Shown piece by piece: positions 6,251 to 49,659 of a DNA stretch of 64,000 bases. The stretch covers positions 38,245,001 to 38,309,000 of the forward strand of contig JBANSL010000001.1 in assembly GCA_037127255.1 (NCBI GenBank). Direction: 5' to 3'. The stretch is from Persicaria tinctoria. Taxonomy: Eukaryota > Streptophyta > Magnoliopsida > Caryophyllales > Polygonaceae. How positions within the stretch are numbered: the stretch's first letter is position 1; the number at the start of each line of letters is the position of its first letter. The position numbers and the translations under genes were made by a program. The notes beneath the pieces are model-generated. The model was not told where the DNA came from. It was given only the letters and a program-made list of their open reading frames with translations, and made no database searches.

Positions 6251-9093
6251 TGTAAAGGCTCGGATTTTCAAATCCTAATTTTCTGGAATAAGAGAATTAA
6301 AAATGAAATTAAGTCGGTTTTAAAACTTGTTTAGCGGATTCCGACCGGAGTATAAATTTAACGAACAATTTCCGTTCTTTTACCTCAAAAATTCAAAATA
6401 ATTATCGTGGTGTGTTATCCTTTTCGATTTTATAAATCTAATTAATCGAGAAAACGAGATTCAAAGAAACTAACTATCACGAACTAATTTCGGGATTCAA
6501 AATTCGCGTATTCGAGATTTAATTCCGGGTAATTGTTTACCCATTTCCACACTCTATCCTCACCCACTCCCATCATCTCACCATGCCTACAAATGGAACC
6601 ATCCCCTTCACCATTCCCTCACCATCACCATCACTCATCGTCACCATCACCTCCTCACCATCACTCCCGCTCTCTCTTATTGTTCAAGCAACACACACCT
6701 TCATCTTCAACATCACCTAAAACCATCACCGTCACCTTCCCGTTTCTCTTCTCCGATCACCACCATCAATCCCTTTTCATCTTCGACCCCTCCTCGGAGC
6801 CACCAGAGCAGCCACAGCATTCCTTGGGGCCACCAGAAGCAACGAAGCCACCACCGGAGCCGCCACGAGAGCCACCGCAGCCCCACTCCCTTCTAAACCA
6901 TGTTCGATCGCGAGCTAAGTTCCGGTAAGCGATTCTTTTCCGTCTTCGATCGAAACCACTCTCGAGCCCTACCATCACGGTCACCCATGTCCCACGCAGG
7001 TCCGACGAGTCTTCGCAAGCCACCGACAACGCCCAGAACTCCGATCGAGACCTCCGATGTCGCGAACATCCTCGGTGAGCTATCGAACCTCCTCCTTTTT
7101 CCTTGGTTTGTTTTGGTTCCTTCTTGTCCTTGAGTGGTCGAGAGAGAGAAAGTTGGGGATGGGTAACAGAGGAGAGCTCCGGCGAGCTCGAGAGCTCCGA
7201 CGAGCTCGAGGGCGGCGAGATCGAGCGCGGGAGCCATGGGAGCGACGGTTGTGAGTTGAATTCGAGCGGGCAGGCGGGAGCGTGGGAGCAGGGGAGTGTG
7301 AGCGTGGTCGGGAGGGGCGAGTCCTTGGGATCTGGGCTGGCTGAGCGGCTTGGCCGAGCTGGGCGGGCGCCATGGCGTCGAGCAGTGAAGGCGGCGGGAT
7401 TCTCCTTTCGAATTGAGGGAGGAAGAACAAGACTCCCTGGGGCCCCTGTCCAGTCAGCTCAATGGGGCCCACACCTTCATTTTTTGTTTGTTTGTTTGAT
7501 GAACCGGGTTGGTTTGAGGTTTAGCGGGTTCGGTTCGGTTTGGGTTAAAAGCGTTGGTTCGGTTCGGGTTATTCGTTATATATTTATTTATTTAATTTAT
7601 TAATTAATTGTTTAACCGATTTCCGATAATTGATTGTTCAGAAATTGATTTGTGTGTCGGTATTTAAAAAGGGGTCGGTTTTAAAGTATATAAATTGAAT
7701 TATTTTGTAACGGTTGAAAGTTACTTAAATCCCTAGAATGGTGATTTTAATTAAAGTAAAGTATGTCGGGATTATTTAAATGGATTTTTTTTGAAAGTAT
7801 TTTTAAAGATTAAATATTTTATAAATTAGAAATGGCTAAGTATAAACTTGAAGTAATTGTTTTGGCTAACAACTGGACTAGCGAGTGAGATTTTATGGAT
7901 TGAAGTATGATTGAGTCAGTTATGGAAATGACAATGGAATAAGATGATATAAGATGTTGCCATAAGTTGAGATAAAGAATGTTGATGATGCTATGATTAA
8001 TGGATTGGTGGGCATGTTATGTAGTGGTAAATGGATCCCGTTTTGTGCAGTTTACTTATGCATATTTATTAATAATTGCTAGGTGATCTGTAACCTGCTT
8101 GCTTATATCTTGCTGCTTTTCATCTTGCTGATCTGCTACTCCAGGTAAGTTCTTTGAACTTACTCATGATGGGCGCTCTATGCACTGGGTGTTATATAGT
8201 AGGCTAGTGTCCATGCACCATACGACTTAGAATCATGCTTAGGAGCTAAAATGAAAATCATATGATTGCTATATGTCCTTGCAAGAGAACGGCCGTTATC
8301 TGTGATAGTCCTAGAGTCTTTGCTAGGGTCATAGGGTAGCCCAGCCTCATCGGGTACCCTGGGTCAATCGAGTCTATATGAGCATGATATGATAGCCCAA
8401 CACCATCGGGCAAGCGATGATATGATATGATATGATATGATGATGCCGTGGGTTGTGCACCACCACGAGGAATTTGCTATGCTATAGCACCGAACTGGCC
8501 AGTGTCCGCCCTATCGGAAGGGGGGTGGAGGTACGAGAGGGACATGCCACTTGGCATTCTGTGTGGATCCATTTATCGCTTTCTGCATTATATTAAACTG
8601 TCAATATATATACGTGATTTAATTTACGCATGGCATTACGCATTTCATCTTAAGAGTAGGATGCTTATTATATGCCTCTCAGAGTGTGTTTACATACGCG
8701 CATGAGTGACCTGATGATTGACCCAGATCCCCCTCATTTTTTTTAGATTCAGGTAATCACTAGCCGTTATCGTTGCTTATGTGGATGCTTGGCGGGTTCA
8801 GACTTTTGGCGTTAGATCGAGAGGTTGAGAGACCACCACACTTCCTCTCTTTTAATACTCCCTTTCGGATGGTATTTAAACTCAACCTTATTTTTGCTTT
8901 CGCTCGATTTCACGATTAGACTAAGGCAGGTATTTGATCTCCAATGGATCCGCGATCTTTAAGGGTTCGAAATCCCTTCTTTTAGTACAAATATTTTGTT
9001 TTAAAACTCAACCCGTACCTGAATTGCAAGATCCGAACAAGGGGTTTTATCCCTTGAAACGTAACCCGGAAATCATAATTCCGGGCCGTTACA
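6251..9093 (+). repeat. Right LTR of LARD-1 (2843 bp)
   Basis: It starts TGTAAAGG and ends CCGTTACA. Positions 6590-7470 include CAT/CAC-rich and GC-rich segments that give Pro/His-rich open frames (for example 6533-6928). The counterpart in LARD-2 is similarly rich but in different frames, so I do not call a gene. Confidence 0.9.
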
Positions 9094-12278: not shown

Positions 12279-12628
12279 GTTCTTCATTAACGTTGATCAC
12301 CATTCATCCACCAATTCAAATTTAATTTCAATTTTTGCAATTTGTGGTCAAGTCGTCATTTTGACTCACCAAAGGCCATTTAATCCTTGCTACGTACGTG
12401 TTCGAAGTCCATTTGTGGGCCGAACAATTGAATCGGTTGTATTAGTTGCAAGTTCAATCGGTTACGATTCGACTCCAATCGTTAATTAGTTAACAATCGT
12501 TAATTAATTAGCGATTCATGGAGTCTAGTCGTTACAAATTCGGCATCAATTCACGGAAATCAAGGAGCATACGTAAGATCGGCGTTTTCTTTTAGCAATT
12601 GGCTCGCCTAGCCAATTGCTACGTATCA
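12279..12628 (+). repeat. Left LTR remnant of chromovirus-like element G
   Basis: These 350 bp match 26977-27329 closely (same order, few substitutions) and end ...ACGTATCA, like the right LTR ...ATGTATCA. Only the 3' part of the LTR is present; the 5' part is missing at the junction with F. A degenerate tRNA-Met primer site (TAGTATCAGAGTCAAGG, 12631-12647) follows. Confidence 0.8.
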
Positions 12629-13406
12629 ACTAGTATCAGAGTCAAGGTTTGTGCGTGCTTTCTTTGATTTTGATATGGTGGTCCTACTGATTTGATGACT
12701 TGGGAGATATGGGGAGATGGGGATGATGATCCCGCACTCTTGAGGTATTGGCAGCGACAAAGGGAGGCTCAAAGGCATCGCCTTTGGCTTCAACGGCAAG
12801 CGGAGATCGATGAGGAAAGGAGACGTCAAAATAAACTTCGACGTCGCTAACATATTTGGCTTCTACAACAACGAGAGGCTGAGGAAGCACGACGACGAGA
12901 GGATGAGGCATGGCTTCAAGCCGGGCTTGATTCCATTGCAGCCAAGACGAAGGAGGAATTCGTTGTCCAAAAAACAGCCCTGCACGACAATTTTGTTTTG
13001 CAGATTCCCGTTGATTCCGACCTCAGAATCGCCTCATCTCAGATTCCCTGCGTAGATAACTTAGAGATCTTTCCAATGAAGGGTCATACGCTATCATAAT
13101 CTCAAGGGAGGGTCTCCGCAAAGCAATTTTGCGCAGAATTTGTTGAACGTGTCTGGAGATGTTCGTGAGGTTCTCTTCGCTGACGTTGAGCCAAAAGTGA
13201 AGGTCGTTGATGAGTAGATCGGTGTGACCAAGGAGCCAATTCAGATCGTTGATGTTGATTGCTCCAAGGCCATCATTGACGCTATTGTTTTTGAGGTTTC
13301 TCGACCTCGAAATCTCCCGGTAGTTGTCCGTTATAGTTCTCTTTTTGTTCAAGGCCAGGCTACTGCTCCCCTAGTGCCCTACAATGAGTTGATTTGAGGA
13401 CGAATC
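12629..13406 (+). pseudogene. Remnant coding DNA of element G, unrecognised
   Basis: Frames around 12745-13090 encode an Arg/Gln/Glu-rich charged segment and then a segment beginning TKEEFVVQKTALHDNF. Another frame from about 13130 to 13397 reads through with a single stop (for example NLLNVSGDVREVLFADVEP). This looks like decayed coding sequence with at least one frameshift, but I cannot assign a family. The very end (13390-13406 joined to 26426-26444 across the K insertion) resembles the end of a chromovirus polyprotein followed by a polypurine tract. No reverse transcriptase or integrase remains, so G is internally deleted. Confidence 0.45.
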
Positions 13407-13946
13407 TGAAGAGTCTATAAGGTGATGAATAATACTCTAGAAGGGGGGGGGGGGGATGAATAGAGTATGGACGATTTTCGCAACAATAGCAATTTAGTGC
13501 AACTTGTCAAGACCTTGATATAGGCTATCAGAACTTGACAAAGTAAAATCGAATGTGATAAAGTAAATGCGGAATATAAAAGATGAACACACGAATTGTT
13601 AACGAGGTTCGGCACCAACTTGCCTACGTCCCCGCCTAGGATTGTCCAATCCGTAGGATTCAAACACTTCTTATTTCACTTCTTTTGAGCCTAGAACTTC
13701 CTAGAGAAACTTCCCTTTCTCTATACAAAGCCTCACCGCTTCTATTCTAGCTCTCAACCTTACAAGTGAAATAAAAGCTCACACCACACACCAAGTGTGT
13801 TTTGATCGAGTATGAAAACTCTAAGTGTAAAATGAATGACTTGTACAATAAGTGCTAGTGTTACTTACCACTTGTTCAAGGTCTTGAGTCTGTGATCCTT
13901 CGTGTTCAGCCATAAGACAGAGATTAGCCTGTTCTTTTTCGGTGTC

Positions 13947-14975
13947 TTAGTCACATGATGAATTTGAGTCACTCCAGGTTGCAAGCATAGCCTTTTTCTT
14001 TTGTTCATATTTCTTGAACTTATTTCTTTTCTTCATAAGGCACTCCTTTACGAGATGATCTGTCTCGCCACACTCAAAACATGTTAGCACTTTTGGCTTC
14101 TTTGACATGTTGGGAGACTTGCTTTTGAATCTAGATGAATCAGCATTTTCACGGTTGGAAAATTGTTTTTTCATCTTCAGAATTCGAGCTAATCCCCGTG
14201 TGATGAGAGCAAAGGGATCATCTTCGTCGTCTGATTCATCACTCTCAGATTGTGAGTGATCTTTCTTTGCTTTGAGAGCAAGGTTCTTTGTTGTTGAAGG
14301 TACTTCTCCATCTTCCTCGTTTAATATCATCTCATGAGTGATAAGTTTTCCGAGAAGATCATCTAATGGTAGTGTAGAGAGATCTTGAGCTTCCTCAATT
14401 GCAGTAACCTTGGGACCCCACTTGGTTTTTGGAAGGCTCCTTAGAACCTTTCGAACCTTTTCTGGGTTGGAGAAGGTTTTCCCAAGTGAGTCGAGGTTGT
14501 TAACAATTTGAGTGAATCTCGTGAACATCTCCTTTACTGTCTCATCAGGATTCATCTTGAAAAGTTCATATTGCCTGAGAAAGATATTAATCTTACTCTC
14601 TTTGACTTGACTTGTGCCCTCATAAGTAACTATAAGTTTGTCCCAAATTTCCTTGGCACTTTTGCAAGCTGAGACACGATTAAATTCATTAGCATCGAGA
14701 GCGCAATATAATAGATTCATAGCTTTGTAGTTCTTAGCAATGTTCTCAAGATCAGTCTGATCGTAATCAGACTCAGTTTTATCAACTTGCTTTCCATCGA
14801 CAGTCTTTTTAGGAACGTGTGGTCCATTCTTGACCAGGCCCCATAGCTCAAGGTCTTGATCAATGATGAACATTTGCATCAATGATCTCCAGTGGACAAA
14901 GTTATTGCCACAGAAAAGTGGATGTCTATTGGTTGACATTCCTTGAGCAAAACCTCCATCACCTATGGTAGACAT
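13947..14975 (-). CDS. gag: gag copy 3, inside the 3' composite LTR
   Basis: An intact 342-residue Gag of the copia type. It assembles virus-like particles and packages RNA. An N-terminal segment with PLFCGNNFVHWRSLMQMF (about residues 19-36) is typical of the copia Gag/UBN2 family. A C-terminal zinc knuckle CFECGETDHLVKEC fits CX2CX4HX4C. An acidic stretch, SESDESDDEDD, precedes the knuckle. It shares with gag1, against gag2, the residues EGT, an extra RK, EED, KKD, ECL, MLAT and SDSN. It has no pol downstream in its own transcription unit, because the LTR tail follows. The start follows the leader ATG shared by all three copies. Confidence 0.85.
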   Translation of the reverse strand: MSTIGDGGFAQGMSTNRHPLFCGNNFVHWRSLMQMFIIDQDLELWGLVKNGPHVPKKTVDGKQVDKTESDYDQTDLENIAKNYKAMNLLYCALDANEFNRVSACKSAKEIWDKLIVTYEGTSQVKESKINIFLRQYELFKMNPDETVKEMFTRFTQIVNNLDSLGKTFSNPEKVRKVLRSLPKTKWGPKVTAIEEAQDLSTLPLDDLLGKLITHEMILNEEDGEVPSTTKNLALKAKKDHSQSESDESDDEDDPFALITRGLARILKMKKQFSNRENADSSRFKSKSPNMSKKPKVLTCFECGETDHLVKECLMKKRNKFKKYEQKKKAMLATWSDSNSSCD

Positions 14976-15017
14976 GCTGAAAACTCACAAGATTGTTAAA
15001 TCAAAACAGTGAGCCAA

Positions 15018-15029
15018 GCTCTAATACCA
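15018..15029 (-). promoter_or_regulatory. PBS1 inside the 3' composite LTR
   Basis: On the minus strand this reads TGGTATTAGAGC, one mismatch from the initiator tRNA-Met site, two bases from the LTR end. It is identical to the copy at 25313-25324 and differs from PBS2 at 23694-23705. Confidence 0.8.
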
Positions 15030-15626
15030 ATTGAAGAGTCTATAAGGCGATGAATAATACTCAAGAAGGGGGGGGGGGGGATGAATAGAATATGGACGAT
15101 TTTCGCAACAATAGCAATTTAGTGCAACTTGTCAAGACCTTGATATAGGCTATCAGAACTTGACAAAGTAAAATCGAATGTGATAAAGTAAATGCGGAAT
15201 ATAAAAGATGAACACACGAATTGTTAACGAGGTTCGGCACCAACTTGCCTACGTCCCCGCCTAGGATTGTCCAATCTGTAGGATTCAAACACTTCTTATT
15301 TCACTTCTTTTGAGCCTAGAACTTCCTAGAGAAACTTCCCTTTCTCTATACAAAGCCTCACCGCTTCTATTCTAGCTCTCAACCTTACAAGTGAAATAAA
15401 AGCTCACACCACACACCAAGTGTGTTTTGATCGAGTATGAAAACTCTAAGTGTAAAATGAATGACTTGTACAATAAGTGCTAGTGTTTCTTTCAACTCTT
15501 AAGCAATGATTACCAACTAGGATTTAGGAGAATGTAAGAGAAACTTGACGAATGCTTTAGGATGCTATGAATGCTTGCGTTGTTGCTTAGATGCTTAGTT
15601 AGTTCCCATCCTTCTTAGCCTTCGTC

Positions 15627-15633
15627 TTTTTAT
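15627..15633 (-). promoter_or_regulatory. Putative TATA box, K 3' LTR
   Basis: Minus-strand TATAAAA. The same box is in the 5' LTR at 25927-25933. The duplicated LTR tail (last 450-456 bp in sense) lies entirely downstream of this position, so each composite LTR would have one promoter. Confidence 0.55.
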
Positions 15634-16148
15634 AGTCGGAACACTTTGTAGAGCTTCTTAGAGGGAGACCGTTTGAAATTCAAATCCTTTCCAAAGTATT
15701 TGAATTCTTTCCAAAAGAAGATCCTTTGTGTGCCTTCCAAGAGTTCTTCCAACTTTCTTCATGATCAAGTATGATCAATTGGAGATTGGTTCTTCATGAT
15801 CAACTTTCTTCATGATCAACTTTCTTCATGATCAAGTGAAAACAAGAAAGAATATGCATAATGTATCTAGTACATAAAATGGGTTAGATGAGAAACTCAT
15901 ATAAAAATCGATAAAGCCCAAGTCTCATCACATAGCCCAATATAGAGCCCATTATAATTTAAGCCCAAAAGGATTGGCTTCGAATTCTTTCATGTAAAAG
16001 AATAAGTTGAACTAGATAAATGCATAAGTGATCAAAACATTTTAGTCTGGGCTTCAAGACCTTGAAACCCAGCCTTTTTATCTTTCATCATCCTTTAGAT
16101 CACCTGCACGTTAGTTCTCAAGATCTTACAATCAAGGTGGAGTCTTCA

Positions 16149-16161
16149 ATCTCCCCCTTGA
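16149..16161 (-). promoter_or_regulatory. Polypurine tract of element K
   Basis: The minus strand reads CATCAAGGGGGAGAT directly before the 3' LTR start TGAAGACTCCACC. This tract marks 16148 as the true start of the 3' LTR. Confidence 0.85.
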
Positions 16162-16465
16162 TGGAAGACAAAACATGTGTCATTATTCATAACATATTTC
16201 CAGTAATCATAAGAGGAAATAAGCATATTATAATATAAGCATAAAATGTTTGGATCATCGAAGTTTTAAAACATCAAGCCCTTAATCAACCAGTACCAAA
16301 ACGCAGGGCAACCAAAACATTCTCCCCCTTTTTGTCTTCCAACAAAAGGGCAGAGAGGTGAAAATGTCTGAAACACCAACCAAAAAACAACCAACGGACC
16401 AGAAGTTTTAAAAGACGAGTATCAAAAGATGAGTTTTTAGAGAGTAGAGAAAAGAGAGTGGGAGA

Positions 16466-18176
16466 TCAAGACCTTGAGTCAGAATCCCCATCTGCAGCCT
16501 TCTTCTTCTTGATCTTTAGAGCCTTCTTGCCTTTCTTAGCAGAGGATGGCCCAGCAGCAGAGGATGTACCAGTGGCTCCAGGAGCATTAGGATCTTCAGG
16601 AGGGGCAATGCCAGCTCCTTCCTCAACCCATTCGCCAAAGGCGGGGTACTGCTTGTTGGGTGGAAGGTATTTCCTTCTAACCTCATCTCTGCACCTCTTC
16701 CTCCACCTTGCACGGGTGTCTCTGGTGACCTTGTCTTGTTCCATCTCTGCAAGCTGTCTTTGACGCTCCACATCCCTGTATTTCTTGATCACACCATATT
16801 GCTCGACCGTGAGAATGGTGGGTTCATGATGAGTGGGGCGCAGGATAGGACGTTTCTTCACTTGATTTTCACAGTTGAGGATGACGTTCCCAATCTTCTC
16901 ACGCACATGATCAAAGGTTTCTTGCTCCATTGGCATGATAGAGCCTGTAGCAGTGTAGGTGAGAGCGTTGAGGAGCATCATTTGGTCGAGCTTGCAGTTG
17001 ACCATGGAGAGGAGCTCATGAGTCTGGTCCTGGCGAATCACCACGTCCGACCACATCCTACTCAGATCAAACCTAAGGTCTTGAATCTCAGTCTCCACAA
17101 CAGCCAATCTATCCTCACTCAAATTAGGTTCAACAACCTGTTTTCCCTTTGAGTCCTTCCTCAGAAACCATTGCCCCCTCAGATTTTTGGCAATGCCCAA
17201 TCTATCTAGGCAACCATCATCAACAATCCCACTATAGGTTTGCTTTTCTTCTCCTGATGTGTCGATCTCAAAGGCTTCAAAGATTTTGGGCAAAAGATTT
17301 GCATAGGGTAAACTGTAAAGGCATAGGCTGAGAGGAGGTGGAGACATGGGTCATGTAGTCGAGGATGAGTTTGGGTAAATCAGGCTCGTATCCGTTCATG
17401 ATTAGGAAAAGGATCTCGAGAAGATTCTCGGTCACCAATTCCCTGGAATGGATGCGTGGGAAGATACAACGAGCCAAAATAGTGAAGATGAGCTTGGCTT
17501 GAAGGTTTAGGGCAATGTGAGTGGGTTTGAGGGTGGATGAAGATCCAGGGCCTTGAGATTTTAGGAAGAATTCATCTCGTGCTCGTGAGAGACATTCAAA
17601 TCAGCTTGGGAATTCTTTTGTGGGAATCTCAGTTGGAAGATCAAGGATGAGAGCAAGGCTCTCGGGAGAGAGACGAATTCGAGTGTTCTTGACCTTAGAA
17701 ACTAGGGTTAGGGTTCCATTTACCCGATGAACAGTGAGATTGGCATAAAAGAGTCGGGTAAGTTGGGGATAGGCAAAGTTGCCAGGGTTAAGCAAGGTCC
17801 AGAAGCAGGTAGATTTGAGGAGGGAAATGCAAGGCAAGGGCATGGATTGGAGGAGGTTGAAATCGACAGCATCACAGAAGCATAAGCGACGGTTGCAAAA
17901 GTCCTGTTTCCAGGACTCCTCAACCTCTTTGTTGCAAAACCAATTGGGGGAAATGCTAGAGGGTACCTGAGGAGGACGAGCAGTAGCTGTAGATGCTGGA
18001 GCTTTGCCTTTGGATTTCCTGATCAGAGGTGGTGGCGATAGTGATCTCTCGCTTGAATCCTCGGAGTGTTCTTCAGATTCCTCCATGATTTTCTTCCCCT
18101 TGTTGGCCGACATCTTATATCTCTTAGCAGAAGGTGCTGGAGATGGAGATGCTGAGGAACGCTTTAATCCCACCAT
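16466..18176 (-). pseudogene. Extra 3' ORF of element K, putative plant transposon-protein domain
   Basis: It lies between pol and the 3' LTR. It reads as three segments separated by frameshifts: 18176-17601 (191 aa, Ser/Pro/Lys-rich start), 17477-17277, and 17347-16466 (the last 293-residue frame). The middle has the Leu-rich style of the 'putative plant transposon protein' domain found with copia and other elements. The last segment has a likely coiled coil (VVETEIQDLRFDLSRMWSD) and ends in a strongly basic tail, KKGKKALKIKKKKAADG. A coiled coil with a lysine tail suggests a nuclear nucleic-acid-binding role, but that is inference. No transmembrane segment or signal peptide suggests an envelope protein. 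Function unknown. Confidence 0.6.
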
Positions 18177-18666
18177 TTGGTTACAAAAACAGAGAGGGTT
18201 TTTGGAATTTGACGAGAGAGAGAGAGAGAGTTTCAGAGAGTGTGAAAATGGAATGGATGAGACAGAGGGAGAGAGGGGATTAAAAAGCTAAAAAACTGGA
18301 AACTGAATGGTTTCACTCTTTGATCAAAAGGTAAGTACAGATTCATTAATTCAAGTGAACAGAAAGTAATGATGTTCTTAAAATTCTAAACCCAAAGTGT
18401 CACATCCACTTGCACAAAATAGAGAGATTTTTAAAAAAATAAAAACGGAAACCAAGATATGTGAGTACCAATATTTGAAAGGGGTAAATGATATCAAGAT
18501 AAACTCAGAAACATTAAAAGATACTCTTGTTGAATATCCATAAGATATTAACCAGAGTTTGATCCAAAATAATTTTATTCGGATGAACATCCAGAAACCT
18601 TATGAAGTCAAGGTCTTGAGATTTCATTTGAATTCATGACTTTCATATAGGGAGCAATTGCTCCCC
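18177..18666 (-). other. Non-coding spacer between pol and the 3' ORF of K
   Basis: About 490 bp without a gene. It holds one exact TCAAGGTCTTGA motif (18608-18619) and a GA microsatellite at 18214-18230 that may lie in the 5' leader of the 3' ORF. Confidence 0.6.
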
Positions 18667-20145
18667 CTAAGAAAGTGCTTCCCTATTAAGCATACCCAAC
18701 TCCAATCTAATAAAATTGAAACGATCTTCAGGAAGTGGTTTAGTAAAAATGTCAGCTAACTGAAAGTCAGTGGATATGAAGGATATTGATACATCACCTT
18801 TCTCCACATGATCTCTTATAAAATGGTGTCTCACATCAATGTGCTTGGTTCTCGAATGCTGCACTGGATTTTTAGTGATTGAAATAGCACTAGTATTATC
18901 ACACAAGATAGGAATACCTTTAAGATCAATTCCAAGGTCTCTGAGTTGTTGTGCTATCCAAAGAATCTGAGAGCAACATGCACCAGCAATAATGTACTCG
19001 GCTTCTGCAGTTGATAAGGCTACTGAATTCTGTTTCTTAGAGTGCCAACTTATCAAGGAGGATCCTAGGAGTTGGCAATAGCCAGAAGTGCTTTTTCTAT
19101 CAACTTTGTATCCTGCAAAATCTGCATCTGAGTAGCCTTTTAAATGAAAGTTACTTTGTTTAGGATACCATAGCCCAAGGTCTTGAGATCCATTTAGGTA
19201 TCTGAAGATCATTTTTACAGCAATAAGATGATACTCTTTGGGGTCACTTTGGAATTGAGCACACATACAGACACTGAACATTATGTCAGGTCTACTAGCA
19301 GTAAGGTATAGGAGTGAACCAATCATACCTCTGTACTCTTTTTGGTTCACATTCTTACCATTCTTATCTTGATCAAGGGAGAGAGTGGAGCTCATAGGGG
19401 TCTTTGCTACCTTTGATTGTTCCATTTTGTATTTCTTTAGTAGATCCCTGGTATATTTCCCTTGATTAAAAAAGATACCCTTACTAGTTTGAAGAACTTG
19501 TAAGCCAAGGAAGAAGTTTAATTCTCCCATGAGACTCATTTCGAATTCTCTGCACATAATTTCAGAAAACTCCTTGAAGAGGGAATTATTAGTAGCACCA
19601 AATAATATATCATCTACATATATTTGAACAATCAAAAGATCATTTCCACGAGTCTTGATGAAGGGAGTTTTATCAATCAATCCTCTTTGAAAACCATTTT
19701 CAAGAAGGTATTTGGACAATCTTTCATACCAAGCTCTTGGGGCTTGTTTGAGACCATAGAGAGCTTTGTCCAATTTATACACATGATTAGGAAATTCTTC
19801 ACTTTCAAATCCTGGTGGTTGAGCAACATAAACCTCTTCTTCTAAGAACCCATTTAGGAATGCACATTTGACATCCATTTGAAATAGCTTGATACCCATG
19901 AAAGATGCAAAAGCAAGTAATATTCGTATAGCTTCTAACCTTGCTACGGGAGCAAATGTCTCCTCGTAGTCTATACCTTCTTCTTGATTGTATCCTTGAG
20001 CAACAAGTCTTGCTTTGTTTCGAATGATCTTGCCTGCTTCATCCAGTTTATTTCGAAACACCCATCTAGTTCCTATGACTGATTGGTGTTGTGGCCTGGG
20101 TTGAAGAGTCCATACCTTGTTCCTTTCAAACTCATTTAGCTCATT
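18667..20145 (-). CDS. pol: Copia reverse transcriptase and RNase H segment of pol
   Basis: An open frame covering the whole RT-RNase H part. RT copies element RNA into DNA and RNase H removes the RNA. Visible motifs: NKARLVAQGYNQEEGIDYEE, then VKCAFLNGFLEEEVY, the catalytic box YVDDILFG, SLLYLTASRPDIMFS, then the RNase H landmarks DADFAGYKVDRKSTSGYC, ALSTAEAEY, SRTKHIDVRHHFIRDHV and ADIFTKPLP. It follows in frame after a TAA stop at about 20145, where a Gln codon (CAA) is expected, so translation from upstream pol would be cut. Otherwise it looks undamaged, in keeping with a fairly recent insertion. Confidence 0.9.
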   Translation of the reverse strand, partial: NELNEFERNKVWTLQPRPQHQSVIGTRWVFRNKLDEAGKIIRNKARLVAQGYNQEEGIDYEETFAPVARLEAIRILLAFASFMGIKLFQMDVKCAFLNGFLEEEVYVAQPPGFESEEFPNHVYKLDKALYGLKQAPRAWYERLSKYLLENGFQRGLIDKTPFIKTRGNDLLIVQIYVDDILFGATNNSLFKEFSEIMCREFEMSLMGELNFFLGLQVLQTSKGIFFNQGKYTRDLLKKYKMEQSKVAKTPMSSTLSLDQDKNGKNVNQKEYRGMIGSLLYLTASRPDIMFSVCMCAQFQSDPKEYHLIAVKMIFRYLNGSQDLGLWYPKQSNFHLKGYSDADFAGYKVDRKSTSGYCQLLGSSLISWHSKKQNSVALSTAEAEYIIAGACCSQILWIAQQLRDLGIDLKGIPILCDNTSAISITKNPVQHSRTKHIDVRHHFIRDHVEKGDVSISFISTDFQLADIFTKPLPEDRFNFIRLELGMLNREALS

Positions 20146-20760
20146 TTACATGGCAGTGATCCAATCTGAGTCCTTGAGTGCTTCAGCTGGGGTCTTTGGT
20201 TCTATAAGAGAAACAAAAGCATAGAAGACACAAAGATTCTTTAATCTAGATCGAGTTTGTACCCCAGATGATGGATCTGATAAGATATCTTGAGCTGAGT
20301 GTGAAGAGGCATGTTTGAATTTTCGTAGCTTTGGACCCTGATTGTTTGAACTAGTAGCATGTCTCTCTTCAAGGTCTTGAGAGATAATTTGAGTGTTGGA
20401 TTCTTCAATGACCGAATCCTGATTCTGTAGTCCCTTCTCAAGGTCTTTAGATAGCTCGTTGGTATCTTGGATTTGTTCTTGCATGTTTCTTTCTTGGTCC
20501 TGCTTATTTTCAGCCTTGTCCTCTTCTTCTCCATCCGAATCATGATGATTTAGATTGAGATCTGCAAAACCTTCACTCAACGCACCATTGTTGCTTTCGT
20601 CGAATACCACATGGATACTCTCCTCAACAATTTTGGTGCGCTTGTTATAAACTCTATAGGCTTTTCTAGTAGTAGAATAACCAAGGAAGATACCTTCATC
20701 ACTACGTGCGTCAAATTTTCCAAGATTATCTTTGCCATTGTTATGAAAAAGCAAGTGCAT
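20146..20760 (-). pseudogene. pol: pol segment between integrase and reverse transcriptase
   Basis: 204 residues. It begins within the integrase C-terminal region (ARSDEGIFLGYSTTRKAYRV) and continues through a low-complexity acidic/Gln-rich linker to the start of RT. It is one frame off the preceding protease-integrase frame, so a frameshift lies near 20760. It ends at the TAA described for the RT segment. The landmark GIFLGYS is typical of copia pol. Confidence 0.8.
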
Positions 20761-21881
20761 CCAAAAGGTTTGAAGTAGGAAATGCTAGGCTTTCTTCCTT
20801 TGAAAAGTTCATAAGGAGTCTTTTTCAAAATGGGACGAATTAAGCATCGATTCAAAATGTAGTTGGCTGTATTAACAGCCTCAGCCCAGTAGATTTTTGG
20901 CAAACCATTTTCCAAAAGCATTGTTCTAGACATGTCCTCCAAAGTGCGGTTATTTCGTTCCACAACTCCGTTTTGTTGAGGAGTTCTAGGTGCTGAAAAG
21001 TTGTTTGAAATTCCATATTTAGCACAAAATAAATCAAACTTTAGTTGATCAAATTCTCTACCATGATCACTCCTAATGGAGACAATAGGTATGCTTTTCA
21101 AGGTCTGCAACTCTTTGCAAAGTTCAGAAAACTCGAGAAAAGCCTCTGATTTTTCTCTTAAAAAGGAGATCCATGTAAAACGAGAGAAATCATCAATAAT
21201 AACCAGGATGTATTGTTTACCCTTTGGATATTTGACTCGCATAGGTCCACACAAGTCCATATGTAACAACTCAAGAGGGCGAGAGGAACTTACAACCTTT
21301 TTAGCCTTGAAGGAACTGCGTGTCTGTTTGCCTCTTGTGCATGCATTGCATAGATCTTCTTTCTTGAAGTTTAGATCAGGCAATCCTCTCACAAGATCTC
21401 TTGTTTTGAGCTTATTGAGGGTGTGCATGCTTACATGACCTAGTCTTTTATGCCATAGGCTGGGGTCTTCTGTCAAGACCTTGAGGCACTTGAGTTTTGT
21501 ACCTGTAGTATGATTAGCATTTACAGCATAAGTGTTGTTGTGCCTGTGAGCAGTGAGGATTAGATCATCAGTCTCTTCATTCCTGACTTCACACTTGTGT
21601 CTGTCAAAGCCAACTTTGTTTCCTTTGTCACACAACTGAGAGAGACTTAAGAGGTTATACTTTAATCCATCAACAAGATAAACATCCTTAATGCAACTTT
21701 CTGAATTACCAATACCAATAATGTTGCACTTCCCTTTATCACCAACAGTAATTGTTCCAGTGGTTTGTTCCTTAAGATCTTGAAATAGAGATTTCTTTCC
21801 ACTCATGTGTCGTGAGCATCCACTGTCCATTATCCATTTTGGCTCTTTGCTCTTGATGATATCCTGCAATACCAACATCAA
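20761..21881 (-). pseudogene. pol: Copia protease and integrase segment of pol
   Basis: Protease active-site region WIMDSGCSRHMSG near the start. Next is the GAG-pre-integrase zinc finger LWHKRLGHVSMHTLNKL...CNAC (HHCC), then the integrase catalytic core with LLHMDLCGPM (first Asp), IRSDHGREFD (second Asp) and TPQQNGVVERNNRT (Glu). This part cleaves Gag-Pol and inserts cDNA. The catalytic residues are all present, but the frame shifts near 20760, before the end of the integrase. The sequence style (TRGKQTRSSFKAKKV, SRPLELLHMDL) is SIRE/Maximus-like. Confidence 0.88.
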
Positions 21882-22631
21882 CCTTTCCGGCTACACCAAT
21901 ACATAGTTTTAGATTCATAATGAGGATAGACCATGTTGGGTAGTCTTGTCCCTTTAGGAACCCAAACTTGTTTTATCTGTTCATTAAGTCGAACTTGAAA
22001 TGTATTTCTAATGATGTAGGGATCCTTTCTCCTATATGGACAGGTTTCTCTAACATGCCCTTTCTTACAACAATGGAAGCAAGTAGGTGAACGCCAATAG
22101 CCTTTAGCCTTAACGAAAGTGGTACTAGGTTTCTTTGGAAAATTCTTGTTGTATCCAATACCACTTCTATTAATAGAGAGTTGTTGTTCACCCAACATCT
22201 TATCAAGATTAGCTTTAGATCTGGTGAATTGAATGAGTGAAGTCTGCTGGTCTTGACACTTATCGGTTAGCTTCGCCTTCTCTTTCTCTAAATCCTCATT
22301 ACGATTCTTTAGAGAGGAGAGGCTTTGCCTGAGATCAGAATTCTCTGAGCTCAAGGTCTTGACTTTAACGTCAAGGGCCGACCGAGATGTTTCAAGATTT
22401 TTCATTTCCAGCGACATATCACTACTATTTTTGTTGATCTATCAGCTTTTCTTTCAAGGTGTTGATTTCACTGTTGTAAGCATCTTCATTAGAAATCATA
22501 TTTCTTAGGACTTCAGAAAGAACATCAGGAGGACTAGACATTAGATTTCTTACCACTTGTTCAAGGTCTTGAGTCTGTGATCCTTCGTGTTCAGCCATAA
22601 GACAGAGATTAGCCTGTTCTTTTTTGGTGTC
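21878..22631 (-). pseudogene. gag: Gag-tail: coiled coil and second zinc knuckle
   Basis: Directly after the gag2 TAA the same frame stays open, from 22631 (DTKKEQANLCLMAEHEGSQ) to stops near 22440. After a one-base shift it continues as the 179-aa frame 22417-21878. That frame has heptad-like Leu/Lys/Glu repeats (SLEMKNLETSRSALDVKVK onward), a zinc knuckle CFHCCKKGHVRETC, and a link to the protease frame with a 4-base overlap. In SIRE-type elements this region joins gag to pol. Only the copy behind gag2 is complete; gag1 and gag3 are cut off about 85 bp after their stop codon by the LTR tail. Confidence 0.7.
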
Positions 22632-23651
22632 TTAGTCACATGATGAATCTGAGTCACTCCAGGTTGAGAGCATAGCCTTTTTCTTTTGTTCATATTTCTT
22701 GAACTTATTTCTTTTCTTCATAGGGCACTCCTTTACGAGATGATCTGTCTCGCCACACTCAAAACATGTTAGCACTTTTGGCTTCTTTGACATGTTGGGA
22801 GACTTGCTTTTGAATCTAGATGAATCAGCATTTTCACGGTTGGAAAATTGTTTTTTCATCTTCAGAATTCGAGCTAATCCCCGTGTGATGAGAGCAAAGG
22901 GATCATCTTCGTCGTCTGATTCATCACTCTCAGATTGTGAGTGATATTTCTTTGCTTTGAGAGCAAGGTTCTTTGTTGTTGAAGGTACTTCTCCATATTC
23001 CTCGTTTAATATCATCTCATGAGTGATAAGTTTTCCGAGAAGATCATCTAATGGTAGTGTAGAGAGATCTTGAGCTTCCTCAATTGCAGTAACCTTGGGA
23101 CCCCACTTGGTTTTTGGAAGGCTCCTTAGAACCTTTTCTGGGTTGGAGAAGGTTTTCCCAAGTGAGTCGAGGTTGTTAACAATTTGAGTGAATCTCGTGA
23201 ACATCTCCTTTACTGTCTCATCAGGATTCATCTTGAAAAGTTCGTATTGCCTGAGAAAGATATTAATCTTACTCTCTTTGACTTGACTTGAGCCCTCATA
23301 AGTAACTATAAGTTTGTCCCAAATTTCCTTGGCACTTTTGCAAGCTGAGACGCGATTAAACTCATTAGCATCGAGAGCGCAATATAATAGATTCATAGCT
23401 TTGTAGTTCTTAGCAATGTTCTCAAGATCAGTCTGATCGTAATCAGACTCAGTTTTATCAACTTGCTTTCCATCGACAGTCTTTTTAGGAACGTGTGGTC
23501 CATTCTTGACCAGGCCCCATAGCTCAAGGTCTTGATCAATGATGAACATTTGCATCAATGATCTCCAGTGGACAAAGTTATTGCCACAGAAAAGTGGAGG
23601 TCTATTGGTTGACCTTCCTTGAGCAAAACCTCCATCACCTATGGTAGACAT
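22632..23651 (-). CDS. gag: gag copy 2, internal gag linked to pol
   Basis: An intact 339-residue copia Gag next to PBS2 and continuous with the downstream pol region, so this is the canonical gag of the element. It has the same domain order as gag3, with the knuckle CFECGETDHLVKEC followed by PMKK. It differs from gag1 and gag3 at several shared sites: EGS for EGT, lack of RK (a 9-bp indel near 23131), EEY for EED, KKY for KKD, ECP for ECL, MLST for MLAT and SDSD for SDSN. It ends in TAA in the same place as the other copies. Confidence 0.9.
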   Translation of the reverse strand: MSTIGDGGFAQGRSTNRPPLFCGNNFVHWRSLMQMFIIDQDLELWGLVKNGPHVPKKTVDGKQVDKTESDYDQTDLENIAKNYKAMNLLYCALDANEFNRVSACKSAKEIWDKLIVTYEGSSQVKESKINIFLRQYELFKMNPDETVKEMFTRFTQIVNNLDSLGKTFSNPEKVLRSLPKTKWGPKVTAIEEAQDLSTLPLDDLLGKLITHEMILNEEYGEVPSTTKNLALKAKKYHSQSESDESDDEDDPFALITRGLARILKMKKQFSNRENADSSRFKSKSPNMSKKPKVLTCFECGETDHLVKECPMKKRNKFKKYEQKKKAMLSTWSDSDSSCD

Positions 23652-23693
23652 GCTGAAAAGTCACAAGATTGTTAAATCAAAACAGTGAGCCAA

Positions 23694-23705
23694 GCTCTGA
23701 TGCCA
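23694..23705 (-). promoter_or_regulatory. PBS2, internal primer-binding site of K
   Basis: On the minus strand this reads TGGCATCAGAGC, one mismatch from the initiator tRNA-Met site. It lies two bases after the end of the 5' composite LTR. In a composite-LTR model this site must be used to copy the full terminal repeat. Confidence 0.8.
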
Positions 23706-24244
23706 ATTGAAGAGTCTATAAGGCGATGAATAATACTCTAGAGGGGGGGGGGGATGAATAGAGTATGGATGATTTTCGCAACAATAGCAATTTAGTGCAA
23801 CTTGTCAAGACCTTGATATAGGCTATCAGAACTTGACAAAGTAAAATCGAATGTGATAAAGCAAATGCGAAATATAAAAGATGAACACACGAATTGTTAA
23901 CGAGGTTCGACACCAACTTGCCTACGTCCCCGCCTAGGATTGTCCAATCCGTAGGATTCAAACACTTCTTATTTCACTTCTTTTGAGCCTAGAACTTCCT
24001 AGAGAAACTTCCCTTTCTCTATACAAAGCCTCACCGCTTCTATTCTAGCTCTCAACCTTACAAGTGAAATAAAAGCTCACACCACACACCAAGTGTGTTT
24101 TGATCGAGTATGAAAACTCTAAGTGTAAAATGAATGACTTGTACAATAAGTGCTAGTGTTACTTACCACTTGTTCAAGGTCTTGAGTCTGTGATCCTTCA
24201 TGTTCAGCCATAAGACAGAGATTAGCCTGTTCTTTTTCGGTGTC

Positions 24245-25270
24245 TTAGTCACATGATGAATTTGAGTCACTCCAGGTTGCAAGCATAGCCTTTTTCTTTT
24301 GTTCATATTTCTTGAACTTATTTCTTTTCTTCATAAGGCACTCCTTTACGAGATGATCTGTCTCGCCACACTCAAAACATGTTAGCACTTTTGGCTTCTT
24401 TGACATGTTGGGAGACTTGCTTTTGAATCTAGATGAATCAGCATTTTCACGGTTGGAAAATTGTTTTTTCATCTTCAGAATTCGAGCTAATCCCCGTGTG
24501 ATGAGAGCAAAGGGATCATCTTCGTCGTCTGATTCATCACTCTCGGATTGTGAGTGATCTTTCTTTGCTTTGAGAGCAAGGTTCTTTGTTGTTGAAGGTA
24601 CTTCTCCATCTTCCTCGTTTAATATCATCTCATGAGTGATAAGTTTTCCGAGAAGATCATCTAATGGTAGTGTAGAGAGATCTTGAGCTTCCTCAATTGC
24701 AGTAACCTTGGGACCCCACTTGGTTTTTGGAAGGCTCCTTAGAACCTTTCGAACCTTTTCTGGGTTGGAGAAGGTTTTCCCAAGTGAGTCGAGGTTGATA
24801 ACAATTTGAGTGAATCTCGTGAACATCTCCTTTACTATCTCATCAGGATTCATCTTGAAAAGTTCATATTGCCTGAGAAAGATATTAATCTTACTCTCTT
24901 TGACTTGACTTGTGCCCTCATAAGTAACTATAAGTTTGTCCCAAATTTCCTTGGCACTTTTGCAAGCTGAGACACGATTAAATTCATTAGCATCGAGAGC
25001 GCAATATAATAGATTCATAGCTTTGTAGTTCTTAGCAATGTTCTCAAGATCAGTCTGATCGTAATCAGACTCAGTTTTATCAACTTGCTTTCCATCGACA
25101 GTCTTTTTAGGAACGTGTGGTCCATTCTTGACCAGGCCCCATAGCTCAAGGTCTTGATCAATGATGAACATTTGCATCAATTTCTAGTGGACAAAGTTAT
25201 TGCCACAGAAAAGTGGAGGTCTATTGGTTGACCTTCATTGAGCAAAACCTTCATCACCTATGGTAGACAT
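24245..25270 (-). pseudogene. gag: gag copy 1, inside the 5' composite LTR
   Basis: Copia Gag equivalent to gag3, with the expected start at 25268-25270. Near 25184-25192 a 3-bp deletion together with a Trp codon changed to TAG interrupts it, leaving an open frame of 311 residues from 25180. Shared with gag3 against gag2: EGT, RKV, EED, KKD, ECLMKK, MLATWSDSN. Private changes include EIVKEM and VINLD. In a transcript starting in the 5' LTR it would be the first gag. Confidence 0.85.
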
Positions 25271-25312
25271 GCTGAAAAGTCACAAGATTGTTAAATCAAA
25301 ACAGTGAGCCAA

Positions 25313-25324
25313 GCTCTAATACCA
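25313..25324 (-). promoter_or_regulatory. PBS1 inside the 5' composite LTR
   Basis: The minus strand reads TGGTATTAGAGC two bases after the LTR end, the same variant as at 15018-15029. Confidence 0.8.
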
Positions 25325-25926
25325 ATTGAAGAGTCTATAAGGCGATGAATAATACTCTAGAAGGGGGGGGGGGGGGGGGATGAATAGAGTATGGATGATT
25401 TTCGCAACAATAGCAATTTAGTGCAACTTGTCAAGACCTTGATATAGGCTATCAGAACTTGACAAAGTAAAATCGAATGTGATAAAGTAAATGCGGAATA
25501 TAAAAGATGAACACACGAATTGTTAACGAGGTTCGGCACCAACTTGCCTACGTCCCCGCCTAGGATTGTCCAATCCGTAGGATTCAAACACTTCTTATTT
25601 CACTTCTTTTGAGCCTAGAACTTCCTAGAGAAACTTCCCTTTCTCTATACAAAGCCTCACCGCTTCTATTCTAGCTCTCAACCTTACAAGTGAAATAAAA
25701 GCTCACACCACACACCAAGTGTGTTTTGATCGAGTATGAAAACTCTAAGTGTAATATGAATGACTTGTACAATAAGTGCTAGTGTTTCTCTCAACTCTTA
25801 AGCAATGATCACCAACTAGGATTTAGGAGAATGTAAGAGAAACTTGACGAATGCTTTAGGATGCTATGAATGCTTGCGTTGTTGCTTAGATGCTTAGTTA
25901 GTTCCCATCCTTCTTAGCCTTCGTCT

Positions 25927-25933
25927 TTTTATA
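25927..25933 (-). promoter_or_regulatory. Putative TATA box, K 5' LTR
   Basis: TATAAAA on the minus strand, at the same place as in the 3' LTR. Transcription would run leftwards through the rest of the LTR, PBS1, gag1, the LTR tail, PBS2, gag2 and pol. Confidence 0.55.
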
Positions 25934-26430
25934 GTTGAAACACTTTGTAGAGCTTCTTGGAGGGAGACCGTTTGAAATTCAAATCCTTTCCAAAGTATTT
26001 GAATTCTTTCCAAAAGAAGATCCTTTGTGTGCCTTCCAAGAGTTCTTCCAACTTTCTTCATGATCAAGTATGATCAATTGGAGATCGGTTCTTTCCTTGT
26101 ATGAAAAGTGAAAACAATAAATAATATGCATAATGTATCTAGTACATAAAATGGGTTAGATGAGAAACTCATATAAAAATCGATAAAGCCCAAGTCTCAT
26201 CACATAGCCCAATATAGAGCCCATTATAATTTAAGCCCAAAAGGATTGGCTTCGAATTCTTTCCTGTAAAAGAATAAGTTGAACTAGATAAATGCATAAG
26301 TGATCAAAACATTTTAGTCTGGGTTTCAAGACCTTGAAACCCAGCCTTTTTGTCTTTCATCATCCTTTAGATCACCTGCACGTTAGTTCTCAAGATCTTA
26401 CAATCAAGGTGGAGTCTTCAGAATCGAAGA

Positions 26431-26444: not shown

Positions 26445-27329
26445 TGATGCCATCAAGATTGACCCTCTGTGGTCCAAGGCGGTTCGAGGACCCGATCACC
26501 CGAGAAAGAAGAAGGCGCCACCATGGATTCAAACTTGTTGAAGGGTGACGTCGAGGGTCCTGGGTCGGCGCCGAGGGTTCTCTAGGGCTAGCTGGTTCCT
26601 CTTGAAGAATTTATTATATATATTTATCTATTTTTATTTATTAGTTAGATAAATAAAAGTGAGGGAATTATTTAGATAAATAAAAGTGAGGGAATTATCT
26701 ATTTCCTTACTTATGAAGAAAAGAATATTTTTATATATCTTTAGTCATTTTTTAGATTAATAGAATTATTAGTATTTATTTAGGATTTTTAGTTGTTTAC
26801 TTTTAATTGTGAGATAGTGAGGGTTTCTTTTGCATAGAAGCCAATATCACTTAACATTTTTCCTATTTAAGTTGTAATTTGGTTTAGAATTAATCAGGGT
26901 GAAATTAAAAGAGAAGCAATTGGCTAAGTGCTTTCTCTTCGTCAACCCTAACTATTCACATTTTTTTCCATCTTGCTCGTTCTTCATTCACGTTGATCAC
27001 CATTCATCCGCCAATTCAAATTTAATTTCAATTTTTGCAATTTGTGGTCAAACCGTCATTTTTGACTCACCAAAGGCCATTCAATCCTTTCTACGTACGC
27101 GTTCGAAGTCCATTTGTGGGCGGAACAATTGAATCGGCTGTATTAGTTGCATGTTCAATCGGTTACGAGTTGACTCCAATCGTTAATTAGTTAACAATCG
27201 TTAATTAATTAGCGATTCATGGAGTCTACTCGTTACAAATTCGGCATCCATTCACGGAAATCAAGGAGCATACGTAAGATCGGCGTTTTCTTTTAGCAAT
27301 TGGCTCGCCTAGCCAATTCTTATGTATCA
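26445..27329 (+). repeat. Right LTR of element G (885 bp)
   Basis: It starts TGATGCCATC and ends TATGTATCA. The last 350 bp match 12279-12628. AT-rich direct duplications (a TTAGATAAATAAAAGTGAGGGAATTAT-type unit) occur at 26643-26700. Confidence 0.85.
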
Positions 27330-42287: not shown

Positions 42288-42830
42288 TCCGTCCCTTGCA
42301 AATGATTACAAGACTTCATCCCGATGCAGCAGTGGGAAGTCAGGATCGATCCACGAGGAAGCGTGTCAGTGGATCCTAGGCAGCAAATGAAATCTCACGA
42401 ACAGAAGTCGACCACAGATGTTCGATCTCGACTAGGGTTAGTCGATAGAAGATCGGACAAGTCGAAGCAAGTAGTAGCAGTCACTGGATGTTGGTCGATA
42501 TCGAGTAAAGCCTTCGTTGATCTCGGGTACTTGCACACCAGAAGCTACATCAATCTAGGCGATCGAATGTAAGAAGTCGATGTCGATCAGTTTTGGTCGA
42601 TATCGAGTAGAACAGAAACTAAAAAAGATGCAAAACCTTGAATAGGAATTAACTCAATAAACTAAAAGGCTTCCAAGATCATGGTATCAACACCACAACG
42701 ATAACCATGCAAAGTAACACATAAAGGCATAAAAGATCATGCTTTTCATCAAATAACTTTCGTTATTAACCAATAGGAATATAGAGGCCTTCACATAAAC
42801 CCTAATTGTTACTAACCTTTTTCATATAAT
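42288..42830 (-). repeat. 5' LTR of element A, first part (truncated)
   Basis: It resumes at TTCCGTCCCTTGCAAATG, equivalent to about 35510 in the 3' LTR. The first 60 bp of the LTR and the primer site are missing. ATTC is shared at the breakpoint. It is interrupted at ATAAT by element B and continues at 51505. Confidence 0.85.
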
Positions 42831-44561
42831 TGTTGATAGGAGGGAATCGAGACTTGCAATAATAAAATAGAAATAAATCACAGCAAACCATATTCCGTCC
42901 CTTGCAAATAATTACAAGACCTCCTCCTGATGCAGCAGCGGGAAGTCAGGATCGATCCACGAGGAAGCGTGTCAGCGGATCCTAGGCAGCAGATGAAATC
43001 TCATGAACAAAAGTCAACCACAGATGCTCGATCTCGACTAGGTTAGTCGACAGAAGATCGAACAGTCGAACACAGCGCAACAACAAGTACAGGGGCTCGT
43101 CGATATCAACCAGAGGGTACTCGATATCGAGTAGGCTTCGTCGACGTCGAGTCGAGCTTTGTCGAGTACCTGCACACAGAAGCTACAACGATGCTAGATC
43201 GAAGATCAGTAACTCGAGGTCGACCAGGCTTGGTCGAGATCGAGTAAGGGCAGAAAACTAAATCGAAACAAAAGTAAAAACAAATGCTTTGGGACTCTCG
43301 AAATAAACTGTATGTAAAAGACTTCCAAGATTGGGGTTTGCAACAACGATAACCAAGCATGCATAAGGCATAGATAAAACAGATAATCATGTGAATTGCA
43401 TCAAAGGACAAGCTTTCGCCTTTTCCAACAATTAGACAACATCATAAAGGTCAGATCTTTACCTCAAACGCGCATGACTATCGTCGGGCTCGCCCCAACC
43501 CTAGAAGTGGGTGGACTACTCGCGCTTCATCGCAAACTCAGACATCATCGATTGAAAGAAAACTAATTGCATTAAAATAAACCAAAGTTTACAACCGCTT
43601 GAAGCCAATTCCGCTCTCGCTTCACAACTCCAATCAGCCGCTCACTCTCCCTCTCTCTACTTCTCCTACTTACTTCTCTCCCAAATTGAATGAATGTAAA
43701 ATCAGCCCCATGGGCTTTATTTATAGCCTTCTAATCCTTGCTACTCAAGGATAGAAACATCTATCCATATCTAAAATTATATCTAAAAGGCTTAATGATA
43801 AATAAAAGCAACAAAGGAATTAAATCCAAAATAGGGAAATATATCTAAAAGTCTTAAAGTGGATAGATCTTCTCCTTCATGATGTATCTTGATAATTTCG
43901 AATAGAATCGGCAATCTTCGGGCCCAAGCAATCCCAAACCGAGTAGGATTCGTAAAACCGCGTAACGCGTCTCTGGAAGTCTCCTCGATCTCGACAAAGG
44001 TCTACTCGATCTCGAGTAGGATTGTCGGTCGACTAGTGTGGCTCGGCGTCTCGGCTAGCTGGTGCTCGACAGACTCGGACTTGGCTCACAGGTGTACTCG
44101 ATCTCGAGGACAGTCTTGTCGACATCGAGTAGGAATAGGTCATCGACTTGACCTCCTGGGGTTGTGGAGCAGCTCCCATCGACATGCTCGGACATGATGC
44201 TCAACTTCTCGTCGACATCGAGGAAGGTCACTCGATCTCGAGTAAGGTGTGGAGTCGGGTTCTTCGTCTTCAGCTTCTCGACATAAGCTTCTCGATCTTG
44301 GTAGGTGCCTAGGCATGTCTAGTCGAGATCGACTAGGGTTAGTCGATGTCGAGTAGCTTTGAGCTCTGGTTCTCACTTCTTGGTTTTCTCCCGAAATGGT
44401 TCCATATTCTGCAATATTAAACAGAAACTTATGTAGATCTCCATTTCTGACAAATAAGCATATACTACATAAATCCGACATATTCCCAACCCGAAATATG
44501 CAAAATGTAAAGAATATGGAACTAAAATATGCATAAAGACATGGCTACTTTGGAGACATCA
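42831..44561 (-). repeat. 3' LTR of element B (1731 bp)
   Basis: It differs from the sister LTR by a deletion of about 114 bp near 43432-43446 (between TTAGACAAC and GTCAGATCTTTACC) and a limited number of substitutions. It carries at least twelve TCGA-NN-TCGA palindromes, with centres TA, CG, GG, GA, TC, CA and TG. A minus-strand TATA box is at 43716-43725. Confidence 0.92.
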
Positions 44562-44577
44562 AATCACCCCATACTTA
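44562..44577 (-). promoter_or_regulatory. Polypurine tract of element B
   Basis: The minus strand reads TAAGTATGGGGTGATT, directly before the LTR start TGATGTCTCC. Confidence 0.85.
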
Positions 44578-49656: not shown

Positions 49657-49659
49657 ATT

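Follow-up and report, generated by a model that had tools for sequence, protein, structure and literature searches.

Element architecture and borders

The stretch of DNA analysed here (the window) comprises 64,000 nucleotides of Persicaria tinctoria contig JBANSL010000001.1 (assembly GCA_037127255.1, positions 38,245,001 to 38,309,000 of the forward strand). Positions 13407-26420 of the window are occupied, on the minus strand, by a Ty1/copia (Sirevirus-like) retrotransposon of about 13 kb, the parts of which are listed in Table 1. Read 5' to 3', the element consists of a canonical long terminal repeat (LTR), a primer-binding site (PBS1), part of a gag gene (gag3), a 453-bp U5 tail, a further primer-binding site (PBS2), an internal gag (gag2), the pol domains, two extra open reading frames (ORFs), a polypurine tract (PPT), and then again a canonical LTR, PBS1, part of gag (gag1) and a 456-bp U5 tail. 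The 5-bp target-site duplication (TSD) GAATC is a single one and brackets the whole unit. An earlier annotation, made from the letters of the window (the original prediction), had given the same coordinates, the TSD around the whole unit and tails of 453-456 bp, and all were reproduced.

The two 2.7-kb ends (13407-16148 and 23708-26420), here called composite LTRs, are 97.4% identical over their full length, gaps included, and differ by 40 substitutions in 2709 aligned bases (Kimura two-parameter distance, K2P, 0.015). The 5' composite and PBS2 are separated by 2 bp, as are the PPT octamer and the 3' composite. Since PBS2 and the PPT stand at the composite borders, where an LTR must end or begin, the 2.7-kb units are structurally the LTRs of the element.

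PBS1 reads GCTCTAATACCA on the plus strand at both 15018 and 25313, and PBS2 reads GCTCTGATGCCA on the same strand at 23694; PBS1 is therefore, as had been predicted, the same variant in both ends and unlike PBS2. Each of the two versions departs by one base, at different positions, from TGGTATCAGAGC, which is given as the conserved PBS in the available portion of a paper on Cassandra elements (PMC7215508).

Table 1. Positions of the composite element, its parts and its target-site duplication in the window
Feature	Position	Strand	Remarks
Left TSD, GAATC	13402..13406	.	
3' composite LTR	13407..16148	-	canonical LTR + PBS1 + gag1 part + U5 tail
U5 tail ending the 3' composite	13407..13862	-	456 bp
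gag1 ORF to the shared TAA	13947..14975	-	342 aa, open (PF14223); gag-side sequence runs on to 13864
PBS1, 3' copy	15014..15029	-	
Canonical LTR inside the 3' composite	15032..16148	-	1117 bp; TATAAA at 15634
PPT octamer AGGGGGAG	16151..16158	-	starts 10 bp before the 3' composite LTR
Two extra ORFs 3' of pol	16466..18176	-	17601-18176, weak PF20167, under its cut-off; 16466-17347, nothing in Pfam at E 0.001
Reverse transcriptase (PF07727)	18667..20061	-	includes a putative RNase H part
Retroviral polymerase SH3-like domain	20146..20760	-	
Pol_BBD / GAG-pre-integrase / integrase core	20577..21881	-	
Gag region continued in another frame	21878..22417	-	coiled coil + second CCHC knuckle; by eye resembles the P0008 C-terminal part
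gag2 (internal)	22632..23651	-	PF14223 + zf-CCHC; 9-bp in-frame deletion; TAA end
PBS2, TGGCATCAGAGC...	23690..23705	-	one mismatch to TGGTATCAGAGC; adjoins the 5' composite LTR
5' composite LTR	23708..26420	-	canonical LTR + PBS1 + gag3 part + U5 tail; PBS2 2 bp beyond
U5 tail ending the 5' composite	23708..24160	-	453 bp
gag3 part, ATG to junction	24162..25270	-	two early in-frame stops + shared TAA
PBS1, 5' copy, TGGTATTAGAGC...	25309..25324	-	one mismatch to TGGTATCAGAGC
Canonical LTR inside the 5' composite	25327..26420	-	1094 bp; TGAAGACTCC...GACTCTTCA
Right TSD, GAATC	26421..26425	.	

The gag/tail junction

The U5 tails stop at 13862 and 24160; at both ends one A (T in the sense orientation) and then gag-side sequence follow. 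The same junction had been predicted at both positions, and it is indeed identical at the two ends, down to this single A, which is present in neither source sequence. On the sense strand it reads GTGGTAAGTAACACTAGC, where gag2 has GTGGTAAGAAATC and the two full LTRs have GAAAGAAACACTAGC and GAGAGAAACACTAGC; AGAAA is common to both source sequences at the breakpoint. A 23-mer laid over the junction occurred twice in the window, with no further occurrence at up to 3 mismatches and a mean of 0.00 in 100 shuffles. The same 23-mer had no match among viral contigs, which is unsurprising for a plant element. The start of the tail lies some 147 nt 3' of TATAAA, and thus inside the stretch that is copied by the strong-stop strand.

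Relations among the gag copies and the U5 tails

Over PBS and gag, 14 substitution columns (two in the PBS, one being the junction base) and a 9-bp indel unite gag1 and gag3 against gag2. The other pairings are found in eight columns (gag1 with gag2, against gag3) and three columns (gag2 with gag3, against gag1). K2P distances were 0.0095 for gag1-gag3, 0.0148 for gag1-gag2 and 0.0193 for gag2-gag3; gag1 is thus nearer to gag3 than to gag2, as the original prediction required, and the variants by which that prediction had set gag1 and gag3 apart from gag2 (EGT, RK, EED, KKD, ECL, MLAT and SDSN) are all present.

When the copies were compared by eye with their relatives, the 9-bp deletion, EGS, EEY and KKY looked derived in gag2, and ECL and SDSN looked derived in gag1/gag3. 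Together with the T of PBS1, at least three changes appear to be both shared and derived on the gag1/gag3 side. Part of the changes confined to gag2 may be later than the insertion. Private differences were found in each of the four tails and three gags; those of gag2 are indistinguishable from changes ancestral to the split.

The four tails were aligned, and the edge columns (T4 is 7 bases short, T3 one base further) were left out of the counts. No column sets the terminal pair of tails apart from the pair contained in the full LTRs, so that little time is needed between duplication of the tail and insertion.

Divergence between the two ends

The LTRs of one element are expected to be identical at insertion. 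Between the two ends, the block formed by PBS1 and gag differs at 11 of 1167 positions and the LTR parts at 21 of 1518 (Fisher P=0.37); the terminal tails differ at 5 of 451 and the tails inside the full LTRs at 5 of 447. The similar divergence of block and LTR parts fits the presence of the block at insertion, that is, a composite cDNA. Seven of the 11 differences in the block fall in its first 145 nt, directly followed by a 3-bp deletion, and the other four lie in the roughly 1020 nt that are left. The block's edge appears to be of the same age as the LTRs, and the pattern of differences speaks for insertion of the composite as such, as against later copying of the block between LTRs.

The U3 parts also hold a block that is wholly unlike between the ends (about 15790-15845 and 26087-26113), with three TTCATGATCAA repeats in one and a shorter unrelated sequence in the other.

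Proposed mechanism

Reverse transcription copies the stretch from the cap to the primer site into both LTRs. With PBS2 in use, the stretch copied would be R–U5–PBS1–gag–tail. We propose that priming at this inner site copied an enlarged U5 to both ends, by way of a jump between two co-packaged RNAs, and we give this reading about an even chance.

The strand-transfer events, reconstructed from the observed anatomy, the single TSD, the identical junction and the relation of gag1 to gag3, would have run as follows. Two related RNAs, A and B, would have been co-packaged. Minus-strand strong-stop DNA would have been started at PBS2 of RNA A and extended over about 455 nt of U5. Before the 5' end of RNA A was reached, the strand would have jumped, at the short AGAAA match, to RNA B just past the gag stop; if transcription is assumed to start about 30 nt past the TATA, the jump point would lie about 120 nt short of the RNA 5' end. 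The gag, PBS1, U5 and R of RNA B would have been copied next, and the normal first strand transfer would have followed. In this way a strong-stop strand of increased length, tail–gag–PBS1–U5–R, would enter both LTRs within the same cycle. A second RNA is expected because a jump within one RNA should fail, RNase H having already removed the U5 template; a second RNA would also account for a PBS1 and gag1/gag3 that differ from PBS2 and gag2. In later replication, if any, priming at PBS2 would keep the composite LTR and priming at PBS1 would restore an ordinary one.

Template-switch complexes with TSDs are known in plants (PMC1950507). For Onsen, the accessible text of one report states that recombinant copies arise in transposition bursts, with junctions between family members located in R, in coding parts and, in one case, in U3 (PMC5668417).

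If the proposal is correct, the points at which a strong-stop strand quit one RNA and was continued on another are preserved in a single insertion, whose anatomy is then evidence that a particle of a plant retrotransposon had packaged two RNAs together. A single step would then also suffice for an LTR to more than double in length and to acquire both a primer site and coding sequence, which would be a route for gene capture by LTRs.

Weighing of the alternatives

Several observations weigh against the jump between two RNAs. At the join, one base of the shared AGAAA is altered. It is mildly unexpected that two RNAs with different gag sequences should have no fixed difference along some 455 bp of U5. 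In column 389 of the tail alignment the tails of each end group together (T1=T2 against T3=T4), which is at odds with a single insertion; the column (CG versus TG on the plus strand) is read as two separate, repeated CpG changes. U3 carries more differences than the rest, 11 of about 620, a count made by eye on the alignment with one unalignable replaced block (8 more mismatches and a gap) left out, and the excess is not significant (P=0.14). Most of gag, by contrast, is less diverged than the rest (4/1020 versus 28/1665; Fisher P=0.003, post hoc), with a permutation P of 0.025 for any window as sparse as this stretch; later gene conversion within gag is possible.

In the original prediction the composite arose in two steps: a parent element would have gained a second U5 tail–PBS–gag in tandem at its 5' end, through one earlier template switch in that prediction or else through duplication in DNA, and this would later have been copied from PBS2 to both ends. 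The final anatomy would be the same (TSD, both junctions, PBS2 and PPT at the composite borders), and tails with no fixed difference are expected if the tail was duplicated inside one element. However, such a course presupposes a parent that persisted and in which PBS1/gag grew apart from PBS2/gag2 but the two 455-bp tails stayed alike, and we hold it to be somewhat unlikely. No such parent was seen, though no search aimed at one could be made. Of that proposal, priming at PBS2, the passage of an enlarged U5 to both ends and integration are retained, in keeping with the 2-bp spacing of PBS2 and the PPT from the composites, the one TSD and the common junction. The separate earlier template switch is not needed, as a single jump gives the same product. 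Tail identity was dropped as a discriminator between one step and two, both of which predict about the same number of differences.

The block might instead have spread after insertion, through a 5' tandem duplication of U5 tail–PBS–gag in DNA followed by gene conversion onto the 3' LTR, with no priming at PBS2. Gene conversion between LTRs is frequent in plants (potentially converted regions in 25% of LTR pairs, in the available portion of PMC7251063), and the higher divergence of U3 and lower divergence of most of gag would fit it. The converted tract would nonetheless have to span the whole PBS1–gag insert, whose first 145 nt hold most of the differences and are bordered by the 3-bp deletion, and the insert, taken as one piece, shows much the same divergence as the LTR parts. 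Converted lengths are mostly 100-1000 bp, according to the same portion of that source, as against an insert of 1.6 kb, and two independent rare events would be required at one locus. Duplication with gene conversion is judged less likely than the proposed jump, and in itself quite improbable. Misjoining of repeat-rich reads, by which pieces of gag and LTR would have been duplicated in the assembly, is very improbable: near-identical repeats of this kind are mishandled by assemblers, but each of the three gags and four tails has private differences (those of gag2 not being separable from changes before the split), both borders are where LTR ends should be, and the TSD is undamaged.

Two further origins were rejected. 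If neighbouring elements had recombined at the DNA level, the outer LTRs should differ and a matching TSD should be missing, by the argument of PMC1950507. A nested insertion does not suit an inner tail that is a fragment with no TSD of its own.

Gag content of the LTR and coding capacity

The original prediction had placed a whole gag in the LTR. This has to be revised, as the junction, 370 codons from the gag ATG, cuts the gag frame 27 codons past a TAA common to the three copies. The gag ORF ends at this TAA, after SSCD, in all three (13947-14975, 22632-23651 and 24245-25270); the parent lineage therefore probably had the TAA already, and the family may have been moved in trans. Relatives were aligned as the first 13 of 120 listed, among 652 found. 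Eleven of the 13 read beyond the junction point and two end before or at it; P0001, P0005, P0006, P0007 and P0008 reach a second CCHC knuckle. In the window the second knuckle lies in the ORF at 21878-22417, outside the LTR. The LTR thus contains the capsid region, the first CCHC knuckle (by residues) and a short stretch beyond; the Pfam zf-CCHC match passes E 0.001 in gag2 only. Among the matches listed, the named relatives of gag and reverse transcriptase (RT) were nearly all from plants, and the nearest named gag was that of Chenopodium quinoa (60%). One RT match, P0173, 68% identical to that of the element, comes from a 1.5-kb contig in a record labelled Solirubrobacter, a bacterium, and is probably plant contamination of a bacterial assembly.

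gag1 is open up to the TAA, and gag3 has the two early stops and the 3-bp deletion. The pol region is broken into several ORFs, so that this copy is unlikely to move by itself. In a transcript that starts in the 5' composite, the LTR gag would come first and gag2-pol only about 1.6 kb further on, and Pol would for this reason probably be poorly made. The element is then most likely a byproduct helped by relatives, and not a successful new design; we regard it as a variant of the template-switch complexes and probably a dead end. A bolder view is that the element has two alternative primer sites and terminal repeats that switch size at each replication, PBS2 passing on the gag-bearing LTR and PBS1 restoring the ordinary one. 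Any composite LTR would then, even as a solo LTR, bring with it a promoter, a primer site and a gag open over 342 codons, and could act in trans as a source or a poison of Gag. We think this quite improbable.

Other features of the window

The two copies of a 351-bp direct repeat (12279-12628 and 26979-27329, 94.9% identical) lie on either side of the insertion, about 0.55 and 0.8 kb away, and the left copy is followed by a PBS-like TAGTATCAGAGTC. The composite seems to sit within an older small LTR element, whose own TSD was not established. An 814-bp direct repeat (1-814 and 8280-9093, 100% identical) begins at the window edge; it is either a pair of very young LTRs or a duplicate made in assembly. 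Further direct repeats, at 98%, pair 43438-44562 with 50381-51505 and 42830-43440 with 49659-50269 (stretches 42830-44562 and 49659-51505).

Classification and comparison with known systems

PF14223, PF00665 and PF07727 are found in that order on the minus strand, giving a copia-type gag and an integrase placed before an RT_2-type RT, and GAATC on both sides is a 5-bp TSD, as in Ty1/copia elements. The Sirevirus PPT octamer AGGGGGAG starts 10 bp upstream of the 3' LTR (16151-16158; LTR from 16148). It occurs three times in the element, at 16151, at 16322 and, overlapping the end of the RT ORF, at 18661; all three are on the coding strand and none is on the other, with about 0.08 expected per strand. 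For comparison, the available text of PMC2829016 gives several identical PPTs, four on average, in the Sirevirus linker. C runs of 11-17 are present in all four tails, to about 35 nt from the end, and fit the Sirevirus poly-C integrase signal when compared with its published description. Extra ORFs follow pol on the same strand (17601-18176 and 16466-17347, as defined by their reading frames); in the accessible part of PMC6317226 an extra ORF after pol is given for 74% of SIRE elements. The sub-cut-off match of the ORF at 17601-18176 is to Transposase_32 (PF20167), and a Vitis protein, P0209, fuses PF20167 and RVT_2 in one predicted protein. The Sirevirus PBS ninemer TATCAGAGC is not matched, PBS1 (TATTAGAGC) and PBS2 (CATCAGAGC) each being one base off. 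As this exact ninemer is missed, the element is called Sirevirus-like, with four marks present and one not.

The element shares with the Sireviruses or SIRE lineage, as presented in the available parts of PMC2829016 and PMC6317226, the position of the octamer, further upstream octamers, a C run near the LTR 3' end and extra ORFs. It differs from them in the enlarged LTR and in the two PBS versions. Among the titles and opening abstract lines listed from the open-licence PubMed Central literature, no LTR holding gag or a second primer site was found. Programs that search for LTRs are expected by us to call a 2.7-kb LTR or to misread the ends, and similar cases may be missed.

Four complex insertions (two Angela, one Squiq and one Opie) were attributed to switching between co-packaged RNAs by Sabot and Schulman (2007; PMC1950507). 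A 5-bp TSD around the whole unit and near-identical outer LTRs are common to these complexes and the present element. The complexes have three whole LTRs and two complete cores, whereas here no whole internal LTR occurs: the inner piece is no more than the last 453-456 bp of an LTR, the duplication takes in gag only in part, and the block lies inside both LTRs. In TR-GAG elements, gag is the sole coding part and lies between two ordinary LTRs, with no pol. The close association of LTR, PBS and gag is similar, but the present element has pol, and its gag1 and gag3 lie inside LTR units. Recombinant complexes that arose through DNA recombination and share a third LTR (PMC1950507) likewise have extra LTR sequence in one unit; they are without flanking TSDs and their outer LTRs differ, whereas the present element has a TSD and matching ends.

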